A DNA stretch of 45,019 nt from Microcaldota archaeon (GTDB lineage Archaea; Micrarchaeota; Micrarchaeia; Micrarchaeales; Micrarchaeaceae): the NCBI GenBank assembly GCA_021797895.1, contig JAJZYW010000003.1, positions 1 to 45,019 of the forward strand, in the 5' to 3' direction. The notes beneath the pieces are model-generated. The model saw only the letters and a list, made by a program, of their open reading frames with translations, ran no database searches and was not told where the DNA came from. Position numbers and translations under genes: made by a program. This document shows positions 2,444 to 15,297 of this stretch, one piece after another (position 1 is the stretch's first letter; every line of letters begins with the position of its first letter).

Positions 2444-2626
2444 GTGCAGAAAAGCGCGCGCCGCAACATTGCAGAATGCAGTCTGCCGGCAACGGCACCG
2501 CATCTGCCGCAATTCCTTACCAGATAAACGCTTGCAAATAAATTTATGCTGTTTGTATATTAATAGTAATTCAATAGAGTAATAAAAAAGTTATTGTTGA
2601 GTTTATCAAGGCGAGCGGTAAATACG

Positions 2627-5600
2627 ATGGCTGACAACATAGGGGACGACCAGCAGCCCAGCGACAGGAAAAAGCCGAAAAAATCCTCGGCAAAGGACCA
2701 GGGCCAGCCGTCGCCAAAGCCCTCCGCAAGACCTTCTTCTGCAGGAAAACAGCCGCCAAAAAGATCGCCGCGCAAAGCCCCGCCAAAACAGCCAGGCAAT
2801 CCTTACGCTTCAGAGATGCAGTCCTCTTCATCGCCAGACAGCCAGCCACAGGGAGACAGCACGGCAAATGCCTACGAATCTGCTCTAACGCAGAATCAGC
2901 CAAGCGGCGCGCCAGAAGCAGCTCCGGAAGCAGCTCCGGAAGGGCAGCCAGAGTCACAGCAGTCGCCATCGCAAGACCAACCAGCGCCAGGGCAGGGTGG
3001 CCAAACTGCCGCATCGACTGCGCAGGAAAACGCTTCTTCTGAGGGAAAATCCGAGGAAAAGACTGAGGAAAAGCCCGAAGAGAATGCCGAAGAGCCTGAA
3101 GAGACAGAAGGGCAGGAAGGCGAGGAGAAGCCGAGCATTGCCGAGGACGTATACGCAAAGATAACCGAAGCAATGCACACAGCTACAGGCAAAGCAGGCT
3201 CAAAACCCTATGTTCCCGGGCAGGAGGAGCAGCATGAGGAGCATGAAGAGCAGGAGACAGCCTCAGAGCCAACAGAAGAGCCGCAGCCCGTTCCTGAAGG
3301 CAGCGCAGTAAACCCTGAAGAGGAGCAGCAAGCAGCCAAGGGCGAAGAGCCGCCATCCTCCCAAACAGGCGCGCAGAACGGCGAGTCAGCCCAGGCTCCA
3401 CAGGAACCACAGGCACAGCAGGAGCCGCAGGAAGGGCAGAATCCTTACGCCGTGCCACAAACGCAATACACTTACACGCCGAAGCAGGAGGGCACTGCAC
3501 AGCAGCCAGAATCACAGCAGCCGGTGCAGGGTGCAGCTCCAGGCCAGCAGGCTTCCAATGTTTACGGCAAGGTCGGCCAGGGCATGCAGGTTTCCGTCAC
3601 TCCCGAGAGCCCCATGGGCCCGATAAAGGCCAAGTTTGAGGAGTACAAGAAAAGGCAGCAGGAGATAAAGAAGCGGCGCAAGAAACGGATGATGAAGACG
3701 GCAGCATTCGCCATAATCATCGTAGCGGTAATAGCCGTGGTCGCGCACGTGGTCGAGACCCTGCCTCCTTCAGTGATAACCACCACCATAAACTACGCCA
3801 ACCTTGGCAAAGTCAACTCCTGCGAGTCGATAGGCATTCCGGGCCACTACAGGCTTACTACAAACATCGTCACCGGCATATCGTCCGGCAGCTGCATAAG
3901 CATAACCGCGGACAACGTCTCGCTGGACTGCAACGGCCACACGATAAAAGGGAGCAGCTCCTACGTGGCCAACACCATACCAGTATACGGAATAAAGATC
4001 GCTGGCTCAAGAAACGTCTCTGTGAGCGACTGCAACGTCAATGGCTTTGGCGTCGGGCTTTACTCGTTCGAGTCATCCAGGGTCAACGTGACCGCAAGCA
4101 ATTTCTCAGACAACGGGCTGTCCAACATCTACCTGAATTCGTCGAAAAACGGCAGCTTCATTGACAACAACCTCCTCTTCTCGAGCGTGAACGGCTCGTA
4201 CGTGGTTGTGGGCAGCTCCTCGCACAACGTTTTCCTGAACAACACAGTATCGTCTGATAACGCAACCGGATTCTACATTAACTCCAGGAACAACACATTC
4301 GTGGACAATTTCGTGTCCAATACGCCCGTGTCGTTCGCGTGCGGCACCAATGCAATATTCCCGATATCGAACATAGGCGAGGGCAACATATGCCAGGTGA
4401 GCGACGGGTGCGGCTTCGTGCGCTGCTCAATTGAAAACATACCGGGCAACCTGTCACACGTATCGCTTGCCCCAATATCGATAAACTCGTGCGGATCCCT
4501 GAATTATCCGGGCTACTACAACCTCACAGGGCCGCTCAACACGCTTTACTTCGTCAACACTTCTGACGTCACCTCCGCGTTCTACCCCTGCCTCAACATA
4601 AACGCGAGCAACGTAGTCCTTAACTGCAACAACTACACGATATCCAATTCGGCAACCGCGATATTCTCTTCAGGCCAGAAAAACGTGAAGGTGGAGAACT
4701 GCAGGTTCACTAATTCTTCTTACGGCATAGTGTTCAGCAGCGTGGTAAACGGCACGGTGAGCAACATCTACGGCACCCATGGCATATCCACGCTTGCGAT
4801 GTACAATTCCACCGACGGATTTATCAAGGGCATAAAGTCGTTCCAGAACGGTTACGGGATACTTCTCTCGGGCACGACAAACACGACGTTTGCAGACTTC
4901 AACACGTCAAACAACACGTACGGCATATACGTCGACAATTCATCAGCCAACGCCTTCATAGGCGGCACCGCTGTATCGAATGCGAAGATAGACGTGTACG
5001 CCAGCATAAACGACGTCAACTCCACCTCAGATTTGATGCAGAACACTCTGTGCACTCTCACGAATACCTACTGGGCCGGATGCAAGCTAAAGATATCGCC
5101 CAACCTTGCGTTCTATCCCGAGACCTCGTGCCTTGCGATAAACAGGCCCGGAGACTACCAGCTTGTGAACAACATATCGCAGGCGCCGAGCGACTGCTTC
5201 AGCCTCAACACCGACAACGTGATGCTCGACTGCAACGGGCATTCGGTAACCGGCAACGGCGTAGGGCCCGTTGTTTACTCTTCGGGCAAGTACAACGTGT
5301 CGGTTTACAACTGTTCGTTCCGCGGAACTCCAGTAGGAGTAGCTTTCAGCAACTCGACCGATGCGGTCGTCTCAAACACCGTGATTGCGGGAACGGGAAC
5401 GGCGGTGAACTTCTCGGGAGTGCAGGTGTTCTCCGTGACGAACAGCACGTTTGGCCCGGGAGACGCATACGGCTTGATAGCTTCTTCCAGCCAGGGCGGC
5501 TACGTGGCAAACAACATATTCTCCTCAGGCTCCTCCGGCGCCACCGCGATCGCATTCAGCAATTCGACGCTGAACAGCGTAGTCAACAACTCCGTGTCGA

Positions 5601-6457
5601 GCTGGAGCACTGGCCTGTCGCTCGCAGGCAACTCTACCAACAACTACATAGAGAACAATACGATATCAACATCGTCCTATGACTATTACTGCTCGGGCAA
5701 CGCAATCTCCCTAGGGTCGGAGAACGGATTCGTCAACTACGGCACGACGAAGCACGACTGCCCGAGCATAGCAGTGATCAGCCCTACAGGGCCATCAAAC
5801 CTGTGCACGTCGTTCAGCAGCGGCATCACCGAGGTGCTTGATTCGGACGAGGTCTACTCCTCAGGCGCTACATGCTTCAACATATACGCGAACAATACCG
5901 TGCTCAACTGCAACGGCCACACGATAATATCGGACAACGGCGGATCCTTTGCCGCAATATCAAACGTGCACAACGCGCTGCTTGAGAACTGCTACCTCAA
6001 GGGCTTCAACAGGTCAGTGATAGTAAGGCATTCGTCTGCAAGCCTGTACAACGTAACAGTTCTGCAGGGTCCAAACATGACGTCACCTGCAATCAGCGTC
6101 TCAGATTCGTCGGGCACGCACCTGGGCAGCCTGAACATAACGGCAAACGCATACGGGCTCTACATTGACAACCTCTCGCTCAGTACCATTGGCAGCATAT
6201 ATTCCGCAGCTAACACCTCCTTCATGTTCAACCGCCTCTCATCCTCATCGATAAGCGGTCTCGCATCAGCGCCGTCCAGCCTTGTGGGTCTTGAGCTCAC
6301 CAACTCCACCGGAAATACATTCGCGGACAGCGACTTCTCCGGCACTACAGGGATAGAGTGCCTGTACAGCTCTGCCGGGAAAACCGCAAACGTCAATTCA
6401 GGGGGGAACGCGTACACGAGCAGCAGCGGCTGCACGTGGCTAGGGCAACCATCCTGA
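2627..6457 (+). CDS. large membrane-anchored surface protein: disordered P/Q/E-rich N-terminus, one TM segment, NosD-like parallel beta-helix repeats
   Basis: MADNIGDDQQPSDRKKPKK... low-complexity ~350 aa, then basic stretch plus TM (MMKTAAFAIIIVAVIAVVAHVV), then repeated 'C..I..PG.Y.L..NI.......CI.I.A.NV.LDCNGH.I.G' units and many NxS/T sequons. Confidence 0.85.
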   Translation: MADNIGDDQQPSDRKKPKKSSAKDQGQPSPKPSARPSSAGKQPPKRSPRKAPPKQPGNPYASEMQSSSSPDSQPQGDSTANAYESALTQNQPSGAPEAAPEAAPEGQPESQQSPSQDQPAPGQGGQTAASTAQENASSEGKSEEKTEEKPEENAEEPEETEGQEGEEKPSIAEDVYAKITEAMHTATGKAGSKPYVPGQEEQHEEHEEQETASEPTEEPQPVPEGSAVNPEEEQQAAKGEEPPSSQTGAQNGESAQAPQEPQAQQEPQEGQNPYAVPQTQYTYTPKQEGTAQQPESQQPVQGAAPGQQASNVYGKVGQGMQVSVTPESPMGPIKAKFEEYKKRQQEIKKRRKKRMMKTAAFAIIIVAVIAVVAHVVETLPPSVITTTINYANLGKVNSCESIGIPGHYRLTTNIVTGISSGSCISITADNVSLDCNGHTIKGSSSYVANTIPVYGIKIAGSRNVSVSDCNVNGFGVGLYSFESSRVNVTASNFSDNGLSNIYLNSSKNGSFIDNNLLFSSVNGSYVVVGSSSHNVFLNNTVSSDNATGFYINSRNNTFVDNFVSNTPVSFACGTNAIFPISNIGEGNICQVSDGCGFVRCSIENIPGNLSHVSLAPISINSCGSLNYPGYYNLTGPLNTLYFVNTSDVTSAFYPCLNINASNVVLNCNNYTISNSATAIFSSGQKNVKVENCRFTNSSYGIVFSSVVNGTVSNIYGTHGISTLAMYNSTDGFIKGIKSFQNGYGILLSGTTNTTFADFNTSNNTYGIYVDNSSANAFIGGTAVSNAKIDVYASINDVNSTSDLMQNTLCTLTNTYWAGCKLKISPNLAFYPETSCLAINRPGDYQLVNNISQAPSDCFSLNTDNVMLDCNGHSVTGNGVGPVVYSSGKYNVSVYNCSFRGTPVGVAFSNSTDAVVSNTVIAGTGTAVNFSGVQVFSVTNSTFGPGDAYGLIASSSQGGYVANNIFSSGSSGATAIAFSNSTLNSVVNNSVSSWSTGLSLAGNSTNNYIENNTISTSSYDYYCSGNAISLGSENGFVNYGTTKHDCPSIAVISPTGPSNLCTSFSSGITEVLDSDEVYSSGATCFNIYANNTVLNCNGHTIISDNGGSFAAISNVHNALLENCYLKGFNRSVIVRHSSASLYNVTVLQGPNMTSPAISVSDSSGTHLGSLNITANAYGLYIDNLSLSTIGSIYSAANTSFMFNRLSSSSISGLASAPSSLVGLELTNSTGNTFADSDFSGTTGIECLYSSAGKTANVNSGGNAYTSSSGCTWLGQPS

Positions 6458-8630: not shown

Positions 8631-8963
8631 TCACTCCTCTATCACTGATTCTGCAGTGTCAGAGAGCTTCTGCAGCGTCTTGATAACTCCCTTCATCTTC
8701 GGGTTAAGCCTGTATCCGAGTCCGTACCCCTTCTCAGTCCTTATGTGCGTCGGTTGTATCATGTTTAACGTGAGCGACAGCTCCCTCAGCGTGATTATCA
8801 ACGTCTTCCTGGTGAACTTCTTCTCCAGTATGGCGTAGAGCTCCCTCGTCGCCCGCGGCGACTTCTTGTGGAGCAGCTCAAGCACCGCATAATTCGGCCT
8901 CGTCAGTATCTTCCTGAGGGCCCAGACCTCGTCTTTCGGCTGTTCTTGCTTTGCCATATTCAT
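8631..8963 (-). CDS. winged-helix DNA-binding transcriptional regulator
   Basis: LTRPNYAVLELLHKKSPRATRELYAILEKKFTRKTLIITLRELSLTLNMIQPTHIRTEKGYGLGYRLNP resembles a wHTH; divergent from the pilus operon. Confidence 0.65.
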   Translation of the reverse strand: MNMAKQEQPKDEVWALRKILTRPNYAVLELLHKKSPRATRELYAILEKKFTRKTLIITLRELSLTLNMIQPTHIRTEKGYGLGYRLNPKMKGVIKTLQKLSDTAESVIEE

Positions 8964-9082
8964 ATAAAGTGCGCCAAAGTTTAAAAGCCTTCTGTTAAGC
9001 CCTACACATATATTTATCTGCTTACACGCACATTACCATCCCTACCTATGTTGCCACGTGAATAAAACTACAAAAGTTATAC

Positions 9083-9100
9083 AAAAGTATAAATACTTTT
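9083..9100. promoter_or_regulatory. inverted repeat AAAAGTAT-AA-ATACTTTT overlapping a TATA-like element upstream of the pilus operon
   Basis: Read directly from sequence; 8-bp arms, 2-nt centre, about 20 nt upstream of the ATPase ATG. Confidence 0.55.
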
Positions 9101-9120
9101 ACTTAAATAAATAAACATGT

Positions 9121-10602
9121 ATGCAGATAAAAGCATTACAGCGGATTCTGGCAAAGACCGCAGCCAAGGCAGCTGCAGGCAACACGTCAAGGCCCTCGTT
9201 TTTCCTCTCTGATACGGGTGGGAAGGTCCTCGAATCCAACCCGGACCGTTTTTTTGACATCGTCGAGACGAAGTCCGGCCCGGAGTATGCAGTGTGCAAT
9301 TCGGTCCCTGCCGCGAAGCTGAACGCTTTTCTTTCGGCGGGAAAGTCGGCGCTCATGAGGGACGCAGCCTCCGGGTCGTTCACTGCAGACGCCTCCGATC
9401 CTAGCCGCATGCGCCCTGCCATAGCCTCGAAGCTGATGTCGTACGGCGTATCGGAAAACGTAGATTTGCTGGCGTACCTGCTTGCACACGAATTCACCGG
9501 CTACGGGCCGATAGGGCTGCTGTTTGACTCAAAGGACGAAATTGAGGAGATAACGGTAAACTCGCCTTCCTCGCACATTGGACTGTACCACTCGAAGTTC
9601 GGTTACTGCCAGACAAACATCCGGTTCTCATCGGAGTTCTACATGCGGTTTGTATTCAACCGCATAATAGAGAAGTCTGAAATAGCGGCATCCGTGTCCA
9701 AGCCCATAGTCGACACCCAGACTGCCGAGGGTTTCAGGGTCCACCTGCAACTGCCCCCATATGCCCCTGGAGGGGCGGTGGCGTCAATACGCCTGCGCGA
9801 AAGGCGCTACTACAATCCGGCGCGCCTCATTGCTGAAGGATCTGTATCCCCAGAAGGGCTAGCATACCTCTGGGCATGCATCGAATCCGGATTCAACATA
9901 GTGATCTCGGGCCCTCCGGCATCAGGTAAGACCTCACTCCTGTCCGCACTTCTCTTTTTCGTCGAGAGGGGCGAACGCGTTCTGGCAATAGAGGAGGACT
10001 CGAGCGAGCTCCTGCTCGAGAGGGACATGCCAAACCTGGTGCTGCTGAAAAGCGTATCCGGCGGCGTCGGCCCCTCAGCCCAGATAACAAACGCGCTGCA
10101 CATGAGGCCGGAGCGTCTCGTCGTGGGCGAGATACGCGGTGCAGAGGCCGCGAAGCTGTACTCCGGCGCCAACCTGGGCATACCATTCATGACTACGATG
10201 CACAGCAATCCGGACCCCTCGGCGCTTCTCTCCAGGCTCTCCTCAAAGCCGATGTCTGTCGAAGAGCATCTGATTTCAATGACGGACATAGCCGTTTTCA
10301 TGCGCAAGGAAGGGGTTATGCGCACAGTTTCCGGAATCGCCGAATACTCGTGGCTTTCGAGAGGCGAGATAAGCGGCATGCCGCGCAGCGCGATGAAGAT
10401 AAATACGATAGTGCAGGACGGCAAATTCGACTTTTCAGCGCTTTCAGGATCAAAGGCAGCGCGAAGGCACTCCCGTATGCACGGCTTGAAACCAACTGCA
10501 TTCGCAGACGAGATACGCAGGAGAGCAGAATACTTGTCAGAGGCTCGGCGGGATTTTACCGCAGACGAGATGCTAGAATGGATAAGGGGCTACGAAAAAT
10601 AA
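9121..10602 (+). CDS. type II/IV secretion (VirB11/TadA/pilus) ATPase
   Basis: Walker A GPPASGKTSL, LAIEEDSSEL, RPERLVVGEIRGAEA, TTMHSNPDPSALLSRL. Confidence 0.93.
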   Translation: MQIKALQRILAKTAAKAAAGNTSRPSFFLSDTGGKVLESNPDRFFDIVETKSGPEYAVCNSVPAAKLNAFLSAGKSALMRDAASGSFTADASDPSRMRPAIASKLMSYGVSENVDLLAYLLAHEFTGYGPIGLLFDSKDEIEEITVNSPSSHIGLYHSKFGYCQTNIRFSSEFYMRFVFNRIIEKSEIAASVSKPIVDTQTAEGFRVHLQLPPYAPGGAVASIRLRERRYYNPARLIAEGSVSPEGLAYLWACIESGFNIVISGPPASGKTSLLSALLFFVERGERVLAIEEDSSELLLERDMPNLVLLKSVSGGVGPSAQITNALHMRPERLVVGEIRGAEAAKLYSGANLGIPFMTTMHSNPDPSALLSRLSSKPMSVEEHLISMTDIAVFMRKEGVMRTVSGIAEYSWLSRGEISGMPRSAMKINTIVQDGKFDFSALSGSKAARRHSRMHGLKPTAFADEIRRRAEYLSEARRDFTADEMLEWIRGYEK

Positions 10603-11303
10603 TGCGCTTTTCAAAAGGCGGCTCGGGCGTTGCTGCAGCGTATGCCGCCGCGGCAATCATCCTGTCGACAGCGCTCGGCATGTACCTGATATCCGCCTCA
10701 ATCGTTATTGCGCTGCTGCTGGTGTCGCTGCTGCACATTGGCTTCTCAAAGAGCAGCGCATCCAAGGCTGAAGTTGAGCGCCTTGGCGAGATATGCCTGC
10801 TAACCCATGAAACAATAAACTCGGGTTACGGAATCGTTCCGGCTATGCGGTCCGCTCTCGCGGCCTTTCCGCCTGAAGGCGCTTCATACAGGGCGTTTTT
10901 CGAGGCGCTCGCGCTATCCGAAACGGGCACCGCGCCGGATGAGGCGTTCGCGGAAGTGGCATCAAGGCAGAAGGACAGGGCGATTTCCTCCGCGTTGCTT
11001 GCAGTTGCAAAGTCGCTATCGGATTCCGGCGAAAGAGGCTTCGGCATAGCCGGGGAGGCCGCCGCATCGAAATCCAGGGCTTCTGTAAAGCGCGGTGAAT
11101 CATCCTTTCAAAAGGCAAGCGTTGTTGCAGTTTTCTCCGGCTCCGTGCTGCCAACGATAGCTGCCTTTGCTTTCATAGGCTATTCCATAGTCGGCAGCGG
11201 CGGCAGCATGCTACTGGCAATGCCACTCGCGTTGGACGCCGCCCTCCCGGCAGTCTACTCCGTTTCGCTGATGCTTATGAGCAAATCCTACTTGGGTGCA
11301 TGA
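10578..11303 (+). CDS. type II secretion F (TadC)-like pilus assembly membrane protein, copy 1
   Basis: Internal Met of the 317-aa ORF, overlapping the ATPase stop; TM segments flank a helical soluble domain (INSGYGIVPAMRSALAAFPPEG...AVAKSLSDSGERG). Confidence 0.7.
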   Translation: MDKGLRKIMRFSKGGSGVAAAYAAAAIILSTALGMYLISASIVIALLLVSLLHIGFSKSSASKAEVERLGEICLLTHETINSGYGIVPAMRSALAAFPPEGASYRAFFEALALSETGTAPDEAFAEVASRQKDRAISSALLAVAKSLSDSGERGFGIAGEAAASKSRASVKRGESSFQKASVVAVFSGSVLPTIAAFAFIGYSIVGSGGSMLLAMPLALDAALPAVYSVSLMLMSKSYLGA

Positions 11304-12060
11304 AATGAGGCAGGGAATAGCATCTGCAGCTGCGATGTCGTCATCCGCGCTCTCCGCGCTATTCTCGGCGCTCGGCTACCTGGAATACTCCATACCCCTG
11401 CTTGCCATATCCGCTGCGGCGTATACTGCGCTGATAAAGGAGCGCGCAGCCCATTCTGACGAGGACGTGATGGAGTTTCTTGCAAACATATGCTCCACCA
11501 GTCCATCGGCGCCTTTGCAGGACAGGGTGGAAATTTCGCTGCGCGAAAGGTTCTGGTTCAAGTCACTGCTCCTGGATGCTATGCGCATGTGCGGGCTCTC
11601 GGAACACCCGCAAAGCGCGTTTTCGGGCCTCACATCCCGTGGCGGTCTCCTTGGGCGTACGGCTTCAGCGCTTGCGGACTCGATTGAACGGGGAACAGAC
11701 CCATCGCCTGTGCTGAAGATGCTCCACGACTCGGCCTATGCAAGGTCGAAGGCGCAGTCCGGAATGCGTGATGCATTGAGGAACTCGCTCTCCATATGCA
11801 CCATGTCTTCGTGCGCTTTCTTCCCCGCGTTCGCAGGGATAGGAGTAACCATCATCTCATTCGCAGCAGGGCTCTCTGGCGGCAGCCTTTCTGCTGGATA
11901 TGCGGCGATGGCAATGATGTCCTATGTCGCTCTTTCGATGCTTGCATACTCGCTTGCCGACAGGGGGGAATACGGCAATGCGAGGATGTCGCTGCTGATG
12001 GCGGTATCACTTGCGGTATACAGGGCAAGCTTCATGCTCTCATCGCATTACGCTCTATGA
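11296..12060 (+). CDS. type II secretion F (TadC)-like pilus assembly membrane protein, copy 2
   Basis: 254 aa, same layout as the preceding gene and overlapping it; possible start ATG 11305 (MRQGIASAAAMSSS). Confidence 0.65.
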   Translation: MHEMRQGIASAAAMSSSALSALFSALGYLEYSIPLLAISAAAYTALIKERAAHSDEDVMEFLANICSTSPSAPLQDRVEISLRERFWFKSLLLDAMRMCGLSEHPQSAFSGLTSRGGLLGRTASALADSIERGTDPSPVLKMLHDSAYARSKAQSGMRDALRNSLSICTMSSCAFFPAFAGIGVTIISFAAGLSGGSLSAGYAAMAMMSYVALSMLAYSLADRGEYGNARMSLLMAVSLAVYRASFMLSSHYAL

Positions 12061-12070
12061 GGTGTCACAT

Positions 12071-12322
12071 ATGGGAATAGGAACGTCTTTGGAATGCGGC
12101 AGGACAGCGCTCTCAGTTCTGAGAGCTTCGAGGAAGTACGGCGCGCAGGGCTCGATGGAGTACATAATGATACTCTCCGCGGTGAGCATAGTGATAGTGA
12201 TCGCGCTGGCGATGATAACCCAGCTGAAGGGCGTTGCGATACACACGATAGGCTCCTCAAATTCGAGCATATACTCTGAGATATCGTCCGAGCTGGCGAA
12301 TCTCACCAACTCCACGAAGTGA
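12071..12322 (+). CDS. class III signal peptide pilin-like protein
   Basis: RKYGAQGSMEYIMILSAVSIVIVIALAMITQ: QGSME motif followed by a hydrophobic helix. Confidence 0.8.
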   Translation: MGIGTSLECGRTALSVLRASRKYGAQGSMEYIMILSAVSIVIVIALAMITQLKGVAIHTIGSSNSSIYSEISSELANLTNSTK

Positions 12323-12326
12323 TCGC

Positions 12327-12668
12327 TTGAAAGCCCAGATGTCCTTCGAGTTTATCCTGTACTCGGCTGCGAGCATCATTGCGCTCGCAGTGGGCCTTGG
12401 TATGGCATCGAGCGCCGCTCCGCGCATATCAGCCACAATGAACCAGGCGTATACGTACGGCCTGCTTGCAGAAATATCCTCCCATCTGCCGTACTACAAT
12501 TCGACTTTCGTCGCCTACGTCCCACGGTCGTTCTGCAGCTACGTGGCGAGCGGTACACCGCCATCAGACCTTGGAGCTGTTGTAGAGGTGCAAAACGGGT
12601 CATTATGCTCGGGAAGCGTGGAGCGCGTAAGCATTGCGTACCGCGACGGCAGCTATTCAATCTCATAG
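12327..12668 (+). CDS. class III signal peptide minor pilin-like protein
   Basis: TTG start; MKAQMSFEFILYSAASIIALAVGLGMASS: QMSFE plus hydrophobic helix. Confidence 0.75.
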   Translation: MKAQMSFEFILYSAASIIALAVGLGMASSAAPRISATMNQAYTYGLLAEISSHLPYYNSTFVAYVPRSFCSYVASGTPPSDLGAVVEVQNGSLCSGSVERVSIAYRDGSYSIS

Positions 12669-12676
12669 GCGAGGCA

Positions 12677-12883
12677 ATGAAACTGCAGCTATCCTTCGGC
12701 GCGCTTTTGGGCATCGTCATGCTTGCTGTTGTCGCGGCATCAATAATGATACCGTTGCACAGCATGTTCCAGCATTACTCGTCGGCGCTCGGCTCGATTG
12801 TGCTCCACGGCTACAACGGCACTGGAAACGCAAGCTCGTACCAGCTTCCATACGGCTATTCATACGGGGCGGGTGCGCAATGA
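12677..12883 (+). CDS. pilin-like small protein lacking the +5 Glu
   Basis: MKLQLSFGALLGIVMLAVVAASIMIPL: QLSF followed by G rather than E; overlaps the next gene by ATGA. Confidence 0.65.
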   Translation: MKLQLSFGALLGIVMLAVVAASIMIPLHSMFQHYSSALGSIVLHGYNGTGNASSYQLPYGYSYGAGAQ

Positions 12884-13209
12884 AATTGATTGCTTCGATA
12901 AGCTCAATGGCTTCGATGTACGTATTCGTAGCGCTGCTTCTCGCGCTTATGCTTTTCGTACGCATGGCGGGAACCTACTCGGCTCAGAACCTTGCGCTCC
13001 AGGCATCGTCGATCAGGGAGCAGGGCGAGATACAGTCCTACTACGTTGCTGCGCAGCAGTCCAATGCCACAATGGCACAGTTCGCCGAAGCCGTAGCGCA
13101 TGCAGGCTACCATGCCAGCGCATACAGCTACTTTCCAGGGATGAACACAAACTCCTTGGGGCGGATAATGACCCTTGGAGGGAAAAGCTACTACGTGGTG
13201 TTCAGTTGA
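12880..13209 (+). CDS. small single-TM pilus-operon protein
   Basis: MKLIASISSMASMYVFVALLLALMLFVRMAG...; ATGA overlap with the preceding gene, overlaps the following TTG start. Confidence 0.6.
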   Translation: MKLIASISSMASMYVFVALLLALMLFVRMAGTYSAQNLALQASSIREQGEIQSYYVAAQQSNATMAQFAEAVAHAGYHASAYSYFPGMNTNSLGRIMTLGGKSYYVVFS

Positions 13210-14486
13210 ATCTGCAGTCTTCGATTGAGTTCCTGCTCATATCCGCAGCGCTGCTGTCGATGGCGGCTTTATCGCTCGGTATATATTATCACATGGTAAG
13301 GGTCTCGTCCTCGGCAGCATCCTCGCTACTCGAACCCCCGAATACCATAGCAGCCCCCTCTGCGAGCACTGCCGCATACGCGCCTAACGCTACCCTGTTC
13401 CTGCAGCAGAATGCGACATACGGCTCAGAGAGCTATGCATATGGCTATGTGTACGCCGGCAACTACACAGTCAACCTGTCGCTATCCTCTGACGGAGTTG
13501 CGATACTTGGCAATTCAACGTATTCAATACACGGGGGCTCTTCAGTCATCCAATTCGGTTTCATACCTGAAAATCCTGGTGAATCCTCGATAACGCTCAA
13601 CTACTCCTACTGGAACGGAGGAAATACCGTATCCTACAGCAAACCGTATTACCTCTTCGCGCTGCTGAGATATTCGGGCCCAGGCTCAAACTCCACTGTC
13701 CAGTATTTGGGAAAGATAACTGGGCTCAATTACTCGTTGGAGTACAACGCCTCTGCTTCTCCTGTAAGCGAGATATACGTGAGCACGCACTGCACCTACA
13801 CCAACTTTTACGGGAACCCCCTTCCTTTCAGCCTTCAGTGTGGCGGCGCCTCATGGGACTACAGGATATTCTCCAACGATTGCTACTACTACTCCGATAC
13901 CGCCACGCAGACATACTGCGTGTACCTGAAAAAGGCAGCCACTGCAATCTATCCCGAAGGGCAGCCATCTCCATCATATTCGGTCAATGCATCATTATCC
14001 CTTGGGGGCGCTTCCTACAGCTCCATCATAAATTCATCCTCGAACTCGACAGTGTATTCAGCTTCCGGCAGACCATCAGGATACGCCTACAATAACGGTA
14101 CGGTGTACTACTCCCCAATACAACCTGATTCCGTATATCTGGCTATGGACAACGGCACGACCAGGCCGGTCCAGCAGCAATACTACTCTGACTACGCTTC
14201 CGCACTTTCATCGCTCTCGGGCTACATGTCCTATTATAACGGGACGTCAGTTTCCCAAAGCGAATTTTCCTCGATAGGCGGCAAGCTCTCCGCATACAAC
14301 GAGAGCCTGCTGCAGCTCCTCTCCGCAGCATCACAGACAACCAACTGCCACTATTCCGCGAATGGGGGCAGGTACGTGTGCCCGTATCCCGGCCAATTCA
14401 GCTTCCAGTCGATAGCCTTCCATGTGGATGGGATAGAAACGAGCGCCAACATAACTGCAGGAAGCTCGACGATAAGGCTGACATGA
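13206..14486 (+). CDS. large class III signal peptide pilin/adhesin-like protein
   Basis: TTG start at 13206: (M)NLQSSIEFLLISAALLSMAALSLGIYYHMVRV; QSSIE motif; long N-glycosylation-rich, Cys-containing ectodomain. The ORF track start at 12798 is probably too early. Confidence 0.75.
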   Translation: MNLQSSIEFLLISAALLSMAALSLGIYYHMVRVSSSAASSLLEPPNTIAAPSASTAAYAPNATLFLQQNATYGSESYAYGYVYAGNYTVNLSLSSDGVAILGNSTYSIHGGSSVIQFGFIPENPGESSITLNYSYWNGGNTVSYSKPYYLFALLRYSGPGSNSTVQYLGKITGLNYSLEYNASASPVSEIYVSTHCTYTNFYGNPLPFSLQCGGASWDYRIFSNDCYYYSDTATQTYCVYLKKAATAIYPEGQPSPSYSVNASLSLGGASYSSIINSSSNSTVYSASGRPSGYAYNNGTVYYSPIQPDSVYLAMDNGTTRPVQQQYYSDYASALSSLSGYMSYYNGTSVSQSEFSSIGGKLSAYNESLLQLLSAASQTTNCHYSANGGRYVCPYPGQFSFQSIAFHVDGIETSANITAGSSTIRLT

Positions 14487-14860
14487 TGAAATCGCAACTC
14501 TCTTTTGTTGGTCTGGCGGTGGGCATAGCAATACTCGCGCCTGTGATTGCTGGCGTATCCCTGCTCATATACTCTGGTTCGCAATCTCCGCAGGCTGCGC
14601 TTCCGGAGATGTACGACTCGTTCTACGACCTCTCGAGCATGGCCCACGGCAACGCCTCCTCCCAATCATGCTTGGCGAGCGATACGTGCATGAGGATGGT
14701 AGCACGCAATTTTGCCGAATCCTACGGGCTGCGCTACATGCGGATAAGCTCTCCCTACGCCAACGCATCATACGGCAACAGCTCGCTATGCGCCTCCTCC
14801 TACTACAACTGCATGACCTATTATTCAGGATCGCTGCTCTGCGTCTACGAGTGTGGATGA
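14483..14860 (+). CDS. pilin-like protein with QLSF signal lacking the +5 Glu
   Basis: MMKSQLSFVGLAVGIAILAPVIAGVSLLIY; overlaps the previous stop (ATGATGA); Cys-rich ectodomain. Confidence 0.65.
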   Translation: MMKSQLSFVGLAVGIAILAPVIAGVSLLIYSGSQSPQAALPEMYDSFYDLSSMAHGNASSQSCLASDTCMRMVARNFAESYGLRYMRISSPYANASYGNSSLCASSYYNCMTYYSGSLLCVYECG

Positions 14861-15167
14861 GATGGAGGGAATCGTTTACGTGCTCATGCTGGTATACGTG
14901 GCGTATTCATTGGCGGCGTACGGCGCGTACTACTCTTCAGAGCAGGGATACGTATCGGCTGCAGCATCATCCTACGCGTCATTCGTTTCAGCGTCATCGG
15001 CATATTCGTCCGTCGCATTCGCGATGTCGCATTCTATCGGGCTTCAGCAGTATGAGGATCTTGAGAGCGCGATAGGCGCCTCAAACATTACGGTATCCGG
15101 CAATTTCATAGAGATAAGATCCATCCCGGGAAACGGCGTATCCTACCGCGGGATATACGGCGGTTAG
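14853..15167 (+). CDS. small membrane protein, last gene of pilus operon
   Basis: MDEMEGIVYVLMLVYVAYSLAAYGAYY...; overlaps the upstream gene. Confidence 0.6.
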   Translation: MDEMEGIVYVLMLVYVAYSLAAYGAYYSSEQGYVSAAASSYASFVSASSAYSSVAFAMSHSIGLQQYEDLESAIGASNITVSGNFIEIRSIPGNGVSYRGIYGG

Positions 15168-15224: not shown

Positions 15225-15297
15225 GGCCTTAGTTGTGTAACGGCTAGCACAGAGGACTGTGGATCCTCAAGACCGGGTTCGATTCCCGGCTAAGGCC
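15225..15297 (+). tRNA. tRNA-His(GTG) with encoded G-1 and C73
   Basis: G-GCCTTAG...GAGGA-CTGTGGA-TCCTC...CCGGGTTCGATTCCCGG-CTAAGGC-C; anticodon GTG. Confidence 0.93.

Follow-up and report, generated by a model that had tools for sequence, protein, structure and literature searches.

What kind of surface machine is encoded by a run of ten tightly packed genes in a micrarchaeal genome, and together with what else is it switched on? Micrarchaeota are tiny, host-dependent archaea, and the genes in question (g1–g10) lie head to tail as co-directional open reading frames on the + strand, at positions 9121–15167 of a 45,019-nucleotide stretch of contig JAJZYW010000003.1 from a Microcaldota archaeon (GCA_021797895.1); by "the window" we mean this whole stretch. 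The source assembly (G000) comprises 711 kb at 77% completeness, and the locus sits on its contig C31. The predicted products are one TadA/FlaI-type ATPase (g1), two T2SSF/TadC-like platform proteins (g2 and g3) and seven pilin-like proteins (g4–g10), each with a single span and a hydrophobic N-terminal helix. Judged from these sequences, the locus is a complete archaeal type IV pilus (T4P) assembly machine apart from the prepilin peptidase. We consider it fairly probable that this machine makes a cell-contact pilus, co-regulated with a VirB-type DNA-transfer machine in an Ups/Ced-like manner and tied in its timing to division. The parts of the locus are listed here with the evidence for each in brackets (lengths in amino acids, aa).

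g1, 9121..10602, + strand: T2SSE/VirB11-type pilus assembly ATPase, 493 aa (PF00437 at 8e-20, FlaI/TadA models, structures, clade)
g2, 10602..11303, + strand: diverged T2SSF/TadB-TadC-like platform protein, 233 aa (through orthologues and profiles)
g3, 11305..12060, + strand: second diverged T2SSF-like platform protein, 251 aa (paralogue of g2; weak PF00482 match of orthologues)
g4, 12071..12322, + strand: probable major pilin, 83 aa, cleavage site GA|QGSMEY, mature length about 58 aa (motif across loci; Class_IIIsignal at 0.08)
g5, 12327..12668, + strand: minor pilin, TTG start, KA|QMSFEF, two Cys (motif and Cys conservation)
g6, 12677..12883, + strand: tiny pilin-like protein, KLQLSFG (position and N-terminus only)
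g7, 12880..13209, + strand: single-span protein without a canonical class III leader (family conserved in 33/41 loci)
g8, 13206..14486, + strand: large pilin-like protein, TTG start, 426 aa, candidate tip adhesin (invariant Cys, structure model, profile matches)
g9, 14483..14860, + strand: Cys-rich minor pilin, KSQLSFVG, six Cys (Cys counts across loci)
g10, 14862..15167 (or from a GTG at 14853), + strand: single-span protein, no leader (relatives; this copy is weak, 42 bits)
winged-helix-like regulator candidate, 8631..8963, − strand: 110 aa, divergent from g1 (weak Pfam match to HVO_A0114)
tandem palindromic operator, 9078..9111, + strand: TATACAAAAGTATA-N6-TTTACTTAAATAAA over the predicted g1 TATA region (motif conservation)

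The last two entries, namely the winged-helix gene and the promoter with its operator, were absent from a preliminary description of this DNA. The same description held that most of the genes overlap, which was a slight overstatement: overlaps occur at four of the nine junctions (TAATG, ATGA, TTGA and ATGA), and the others leave gaps of 1–10 nt.

To what extent do these ten genes travel as a unit? We searched 99 relatives with g1, cut out 40 related loci and analysed them with our own codon-based gene caller and iterative hidden Markov models (HMMs). The close family of g1 was found in 62 genomes (34–47% identity, >180 bits), distinct from other secretion ATPases. All ten genes were present in 32 loci, and their order was identical in each of the 32; over these loci, 51% of the intergenic gaps are of 0 nt or less, and 92% do not exceed 25 nt. 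Micrarchaeota genera with ATPases that mostly share no more than 26–40% identity with g1 show the same order too, a recurrence far beyond chance. Likewise, g1 and g8 occurred together in 57 of the 99 genomes, with g1 alone in five, g8 alone in two and neither in 35 (Fisher 5e-19). In a phylum-wide scan, the g8 profile matched 92 genomes from this order, plus 10 more distant genomes that fall in two other families of the class. At four of the distant loci, the ATPase and both platform genes (as longer proteins) are accompanied by a series resembling g4 to g10. When named genomes were scanned, only Micrarchaeota (some of them labelled Marsarchaeota) were recovered at 36–46% identity, after which identity dropped to about 30%; the named family members include the cultured Micrarchaeum sp. 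A_DKE, with a complete genome (NZ_CP060530.1). At the sensitivity used, the ten-gene machine is thus confined to Micrarchaeota.

The exceptions to this arrangement are themselves ordered. Five genomes carry a split operon, in which g6–g10 are relocated yet clustered. Thus, the homologues are not scattered without synteny, an outcome that the preliminary description had named as contrary to its reading; the relocated genes stay together and keep the operator in at least two of the five cases. In seven genomes without g2–g10, the place beside the winged-helix gene is taken by a diverged relic of g1 from which Walker A has been lost (L207, L208, L209, L210, L212, L214 and L216), and such relics are dead or repurposed. 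Their presence in genomes lacking the rest of the operon indicates that the pilus operon is probably ancestral and was lost several times.

The motor is the best-defined component. Besides matching the FlaI and TadA models of NCBIfam, with PF00437 above the cut-off, g1 has as its best relatives in the Protein Data Bank (PDB) CpaF and 2oap, which is annotated as a type II secretion system protein (archaeal GspE). In an alignment of 25 ATPases, G264, G269, K270, E337 and R339 are invariant, and the Walker A and Glu/Arg motifs are present. The tree, which took in bacterial TadA rows and no Epd reference sequences, unites g1 with its relatives in the order and with the distant copies in the class as one Micrarchaeota clade (99/96); this clade excludes the bacterial TadA rows as well as two further ATPases of the same genome. 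One of these belongs to a second, conventional T4P locus on contig C21 (L037:5619–9845), in which two T2SSF genes exceed the Pfam cut-off; this locus is cut by the contig end. The other is a lone VirB11-type ATPase on contig C1 (L038:5326–6663), which immediately follows ftsY within an operon of ribosome- and signal recognition particle-related genes and has no platform gene nearby. A distant g1 orthologue of 759 aa (L091:4439–6718) carries 4Fe-4S ferredoxin domains fused to its N-terminus, which is unusual for a pilus ATPase.

Direct Pfam and NCBIfam searches of g2–g10 gave almost no matches, and the T2SSF assignment of g2 and g3 holds only through orthologues and profiles. PF00482 is matched by the longer g2 orthologues (7e-13 to 1e-15) and, weakly, by orthologues of g3 (1e-6 to 0.4). 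With the g2 profile, PilC and GspF are weak matches (0.011 and 0.11), and the TadC of the genome's second T4P locus is matched at 95%; an hhalign comparison relates g2 to g3 at 97%, as paralogues. The model of g3 is helical (predicted local distance difference test score, pLDDT, 92).

As to the pilin-like series, g4 carries the motif K/R-G/A-Q-G/S-S-x-E-Y in 39/39 loci, with a mature length of 56–62 aa. Starts of the Q...E type are found on g5 in 37/39 loci, on g8 in 31/33 and on g9 in 26/33, so class III-type N-termini with Glu at +5 characterise g4, g5, g8 and most g9. By comparison, g7 starts with S-x-D/E, and in the relatives of g10 the helix begins directly at M-x-F/L-Y-G, leaderless. The automatic HMM for g6 drifted onto g5, and g6 was assigned by position instead. 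Cysteines are a recurrent feature: g5 has two in 32/39 loci, g9 has six in 20/33 and four in 9/33, and the six of g8 are invariant. The g8 model (m796f0f36a158, pLDDT 82) consists of an N-terminal helix (residues 2–41), an immunoglobulin (Ig)-like beta-sandwich (61–153) and a second, Cys-rich alpha/beta domain. Against the PDB it returned only generic Ig/macroglobulin-like domains with low TM-scores, and for this reason no function was drawn from the fold search. The composition of g8 is acidic (K+R 2.8%, D+E 4.5%).

The absence of a prepilin peptidase from the window was noted early and still stands; elsewhere in the genome, contig C19 encodes a FlaK-like candidate of 303 aa that has a GxGD motif and stays under both Pfam cut-offs. 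Overall, the preliminary description recognised the VirB11/TadA-type ATPase correctly, and its idea of a lineage-specific archaeal T4P machine is sustained by the ATPase clade, the T2SSF pair, the class III N-termini, the pilin helix of g8 and the strict synteny across related genomes. Its two T2SF/TadC-like proteins are recovered through orthologues and profiles but not by a direct Pfam match, and its set of at least seven short single-span proteins is right in number, except that g8, at 426 aa, is not short. The HMM searches that it proposed for each protein were clear for g1 and marginal for g4, but nearly empty when applied directly to g2–g10.

Such a set of parts allows us to sketch how the machine might work. 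We infer that g4 would polymerise into a thin, Flp-like filament, after cleavage of the prepilins by the FlaK-like peptidase encoded elsewhere. The minor proteins g5, g6 and g9, together with the leaderless g7 and g10, may build a disulphide-stabilised priming or tip complex, which would present the Ig-like g8 as an adhesin. The operon would have been inherited vertically within Micrarchaeota.

What controls it? Upstream of g1, at 9078–9111, lies the 34-bp sequence TATACAAAAGTATAAATACTTTTACTTAAATAAA, in which TWTAC-N4-GTAWA occurs twice, 20 bp apart. With up to three mismatches and exactly this 20-bp spacing, the tandem operator was found before g1 in 35/40 loci and not once in 534 kb of background, and control spacings of 17 and 21 bp gave 0–3 occurrences. 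The second palindrome, TTTACTTAAGTAAA, with up to two mismatches, precedes g1 in 28/40 loci and appears once elsewhere in 536 kb. When whole genomes were scanned with at most one mismatch, it occurred just once per genome in ten genomes with the pilus operon, among them G000, and not at all in three that lack this operon. The genome-wide counts and the spacing specificity rule out a general promoter element of Micrarchaeota. The operator also accompanies split operons: G009 has exactly two sites, at g1 and at the relocated g6 cluster, and in G048 a single site precedes g1 and two lie at the relocated g6–g10 cluster. Looser tandem matching yields a few additional sites. As a separate observation, one perfect tandem operator (L275, G010:C1:397336) has no recognised pilus, VirB2 or ftsZ gene adjoining it.

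Where else does the operator occur? In the genome of the window, the best tandem sites are that of g1 and one other, with at most one mismatch, about 200 bp before ftsZ1 (C8:9926; region 9926–11186). Among the ftsZ1 loci scanned (including L277, L279, L281 and L285–L314), 7/20 promoters have a tandem site with up to three mismatches, at 20-bp spacing only, and there was none in the surrounding 72 kb.

The additional sites of G084, G055 and G091 all precede one second operon, which escaped the preliminary description. It encodes a two-helix VirB2-like protein with a signal peptide, a 342-aa polytopic CedA-like protein, a protein of about 240 aa and a HerA/VirB4/TrwB-like ATPase. The VirB2-like protein matches TrbC/VIRB2 at 3.6e-5 to 0.004 and T4SS_pilin at 3e-4, both below cut-off; for the ATPase, PF01935 is found at 5e-14, and HerA/TrwB matches are above cut-off. 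High-scoring CedA-like proteins are present in 69/99 relatives, the VirB2-like gene lies upstream in 50/50 loci examined, and 36 of these 50 promoters have the tandem operator before the VirB2-like gene, again at exactly 20-bp spacing. A second, distant CedA-like family (G000:C7:13613–14155) forms tandem arrays, often of several copies, in G067, G072 and G098 and is possibly another transfer system.

The best regulator candidate, and probably the protein that binds the operator, is the winged-helix protein predicted to be encoded divergently from g1. Complete copies from relatives are 57–78% identical, and the gene is beside g1 in most loci. Exclusive association with the pilus operon was rejected, given that the gene occurs in 86/99 genomes, including ones without the operon. 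In G079 and G095 (L203 and L202), it is divergent to the VirB2/CedA-like operon, not to the pilus operon, and G021, having neither operon, yet keeps the winged-helix gene and the ftsZ1 site.

It is this operator, common to the pilus operon, the VirB2-like operon and some ftsZ1 genes, that leads us to propose a role in contact and DNA transfer. The shared site suggests that contact pili, DNA transfer and division may be switched on together, and on this view the operon encoding the VirB2 pilin, the CedA/VirB6-like protein and the HerA/VirB4-like ATPase would be driven along with the pilus and, in some genomes, with ftsZ1. The pilus might then join and hold cells, either a host or a sister cell, while the VirB-type machine would move DNA at a time linked to division. 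In co-cultures of A_DKE, unexplained filaments were seen between the host and the Micrarchaeon, and 77.8% of dividing cells were host-attached (PMC8975820).

Several observations weigh against this proposal. The class III leader is present on neither g7 nor g10, g2 and g3 were negative in the direct Pfam T2SSF search, and the g3 model found no meaningful fold match in the PDB. The promoters in which the operator was counted, 35 of 40 in the case of g1, are related and hence not independent samples, and three split genomes (G060, G062 and G005) show no clear operator at the second cluster. The winged-helix gene is present in G008 and G021, which have neither operon, and missing from some genomes that have retained the operator, such as G017; the regulatory role of its product is for that reason not proven. 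For the CedA-like protein, neither Pfam nor the PDB gave a match, and its label is based on neighbours and topology. The assembly of the window, 77% complete, has no strong CedA-like match, and the same-genus genome G001 does have one. Finally, the pilus and CedA-like operons are both present in 48 of the 99 genomes, with the pilus alone in 14, the CedA-like operon alone in 21 and neither in 16. Strict co-dependence is rejected by these counts, and such loose co-occurrence means that the two machines are separable.

Because the two operons often occur singly, one might prefer an ordinary adhesive T4P for surfaces or biofilm matrix, with an operator that conveys a general growth-phase signal and has no tie to DNA transfer. 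In keeping with such a role, genomes of this group usually have two T4P systems (PMC5498576), and the A_DKE co-culture depends on biofilm (PMC8975820). However, the operator is not general but almost restricted to these operons, and in G009 and G048 it accompanies the relocated pilin cluster; we regard this explanation as unlikely. A narrower version of our own proposal, rather unlikely as it stands, would have a single contact regulon in which the pilus docks to the host, and host DNA or nucleotides are drawn in before the symbiont divides, with the pilus, the conjugation-derived machine and FtsZ made together.

A pseudopilus akin to type II secretion or Tad systems, in which no long filament would ever grow from the short g4 and the role of the Cys-rich proteins would be to move cargo for protein secretion or substrate uptake, would agree with the very short major subunit, the several minor pilin-like proteins, the lack of a retraction ATPase in the operon and the need of these cells for host nutrients (PMC8975820). 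It is improbable in our opinion: the operon holds assembly parts and pilin-like subunits only, without secreted enzyme cargo, and archaeal Epd-type systems with major pilins of about 70 aa do form pili (PMC4858521). In bacteria, thin T4P with minor-pilin tips bind DNA, which counts in favour of a competence pilus that takes up host or environmental DNA independently of the VirB2-like machine. Gene transfer from Thermoplasmatales to Micrarchaeota is also documented (PMC5498576), but the operon has no competence membrane channel, and g8 is acidic rather than basic, so DNA binding is not favoured; we judge this possibility highly improbable. The contact pilus with shared control of DNA transfer and division remains our preferred scenario.

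Neighbouring features complete the picture of the locus. A tRNA-His gene follows g1–g10 at 15225. Two genes upstream of the operon, on the + strand at 2594–6457, there is a predicted surface protein of 1287 aa with a right-handed beta-helix (NosD-like), and large proteins of about 990 aa occupy the same upstream position in some relatives.

How does this system compare with those already known? The genome paper of 2017 on Ca. Mancarchaeum acidiphilum Mia14, a precedent that the preliminary description also missed, lists two T4P systems in that organism as common to many Micrarchaea (PMC5498576), and thus the pilus itself is of an already known kind. The window-type locus of G011 lies at about 230–237 kb, where MIA14_0252–0260 would be expected from the reported gene density, and the two are very probably the same system. 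That text gives neither a model gene by gene nor synteny across the order, and it has no operator and no connection with a VirB2-like operon; the order-wide definition of the ten genes, the operator and the shared regulon are new here, not having been found in the literature surveyed. A defined gene set and a 34-bp control site are now at hand in cultured organisms, tying pili, DNA transfer and FtsZ to what may be one switch. This bears on how DPANN symbionts seize and feed on their hosts, and the filaments, the regulon and DNA transfer are each directly testable now.

Features in common with Epd-like archaeal pili and bacterial Tad systems (PMC4858521, PMC6668835) are a TadA/CpaF-like ATPase, a pair of platform genes with one domain each, a major pilin of very small size and several minor pilins. 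Unlike in those systems, there is no EppA, TadZ/MinD or DUF2341 adhesin among g1–g10 or in the conserved synteny, the major pilin is inside the operon, and the ATPase belongs to a separate clade of Micrarchaeota, apart from bacterial TadA. Saccharibacteria TM7x (PMC12206443) is likewise ultrasmall and host-dependent and has two T4P systems, one of them a thin host-binding pilus; however, it is a bacterium with unrelated genes, and roles that were proven there by knock-outs are inferred here.

A further parallel is offered by Ups and Ced of Sulfolobales (PMC11868833, PMC9905601), a T4P co-regulated with a VirB2, VirB6/CedA and VirB4/HerA apparatus, as the operator would imply in our case. Ced/Ted DNA import consists of CedA1/TedC, CedA/TedA and CedB/TedB (PMC9905601), a composition that the second operon resembles, and Ced is co-induced with Ups pili (PMC11868833). 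The differences are that Micrarchaeota are another archaeal branch, that a palindromic operator stands here against the known UV response there, and that we find six extra pilin-like genes and, in some genomes, ftsZ1 in the putative regulon. Neither PMC9905601 nor PMC11868833 mentions DPANN, and, as far as the literature surveyed shows, this would be the first Ups/Ced-like pairing reported from these archaea.

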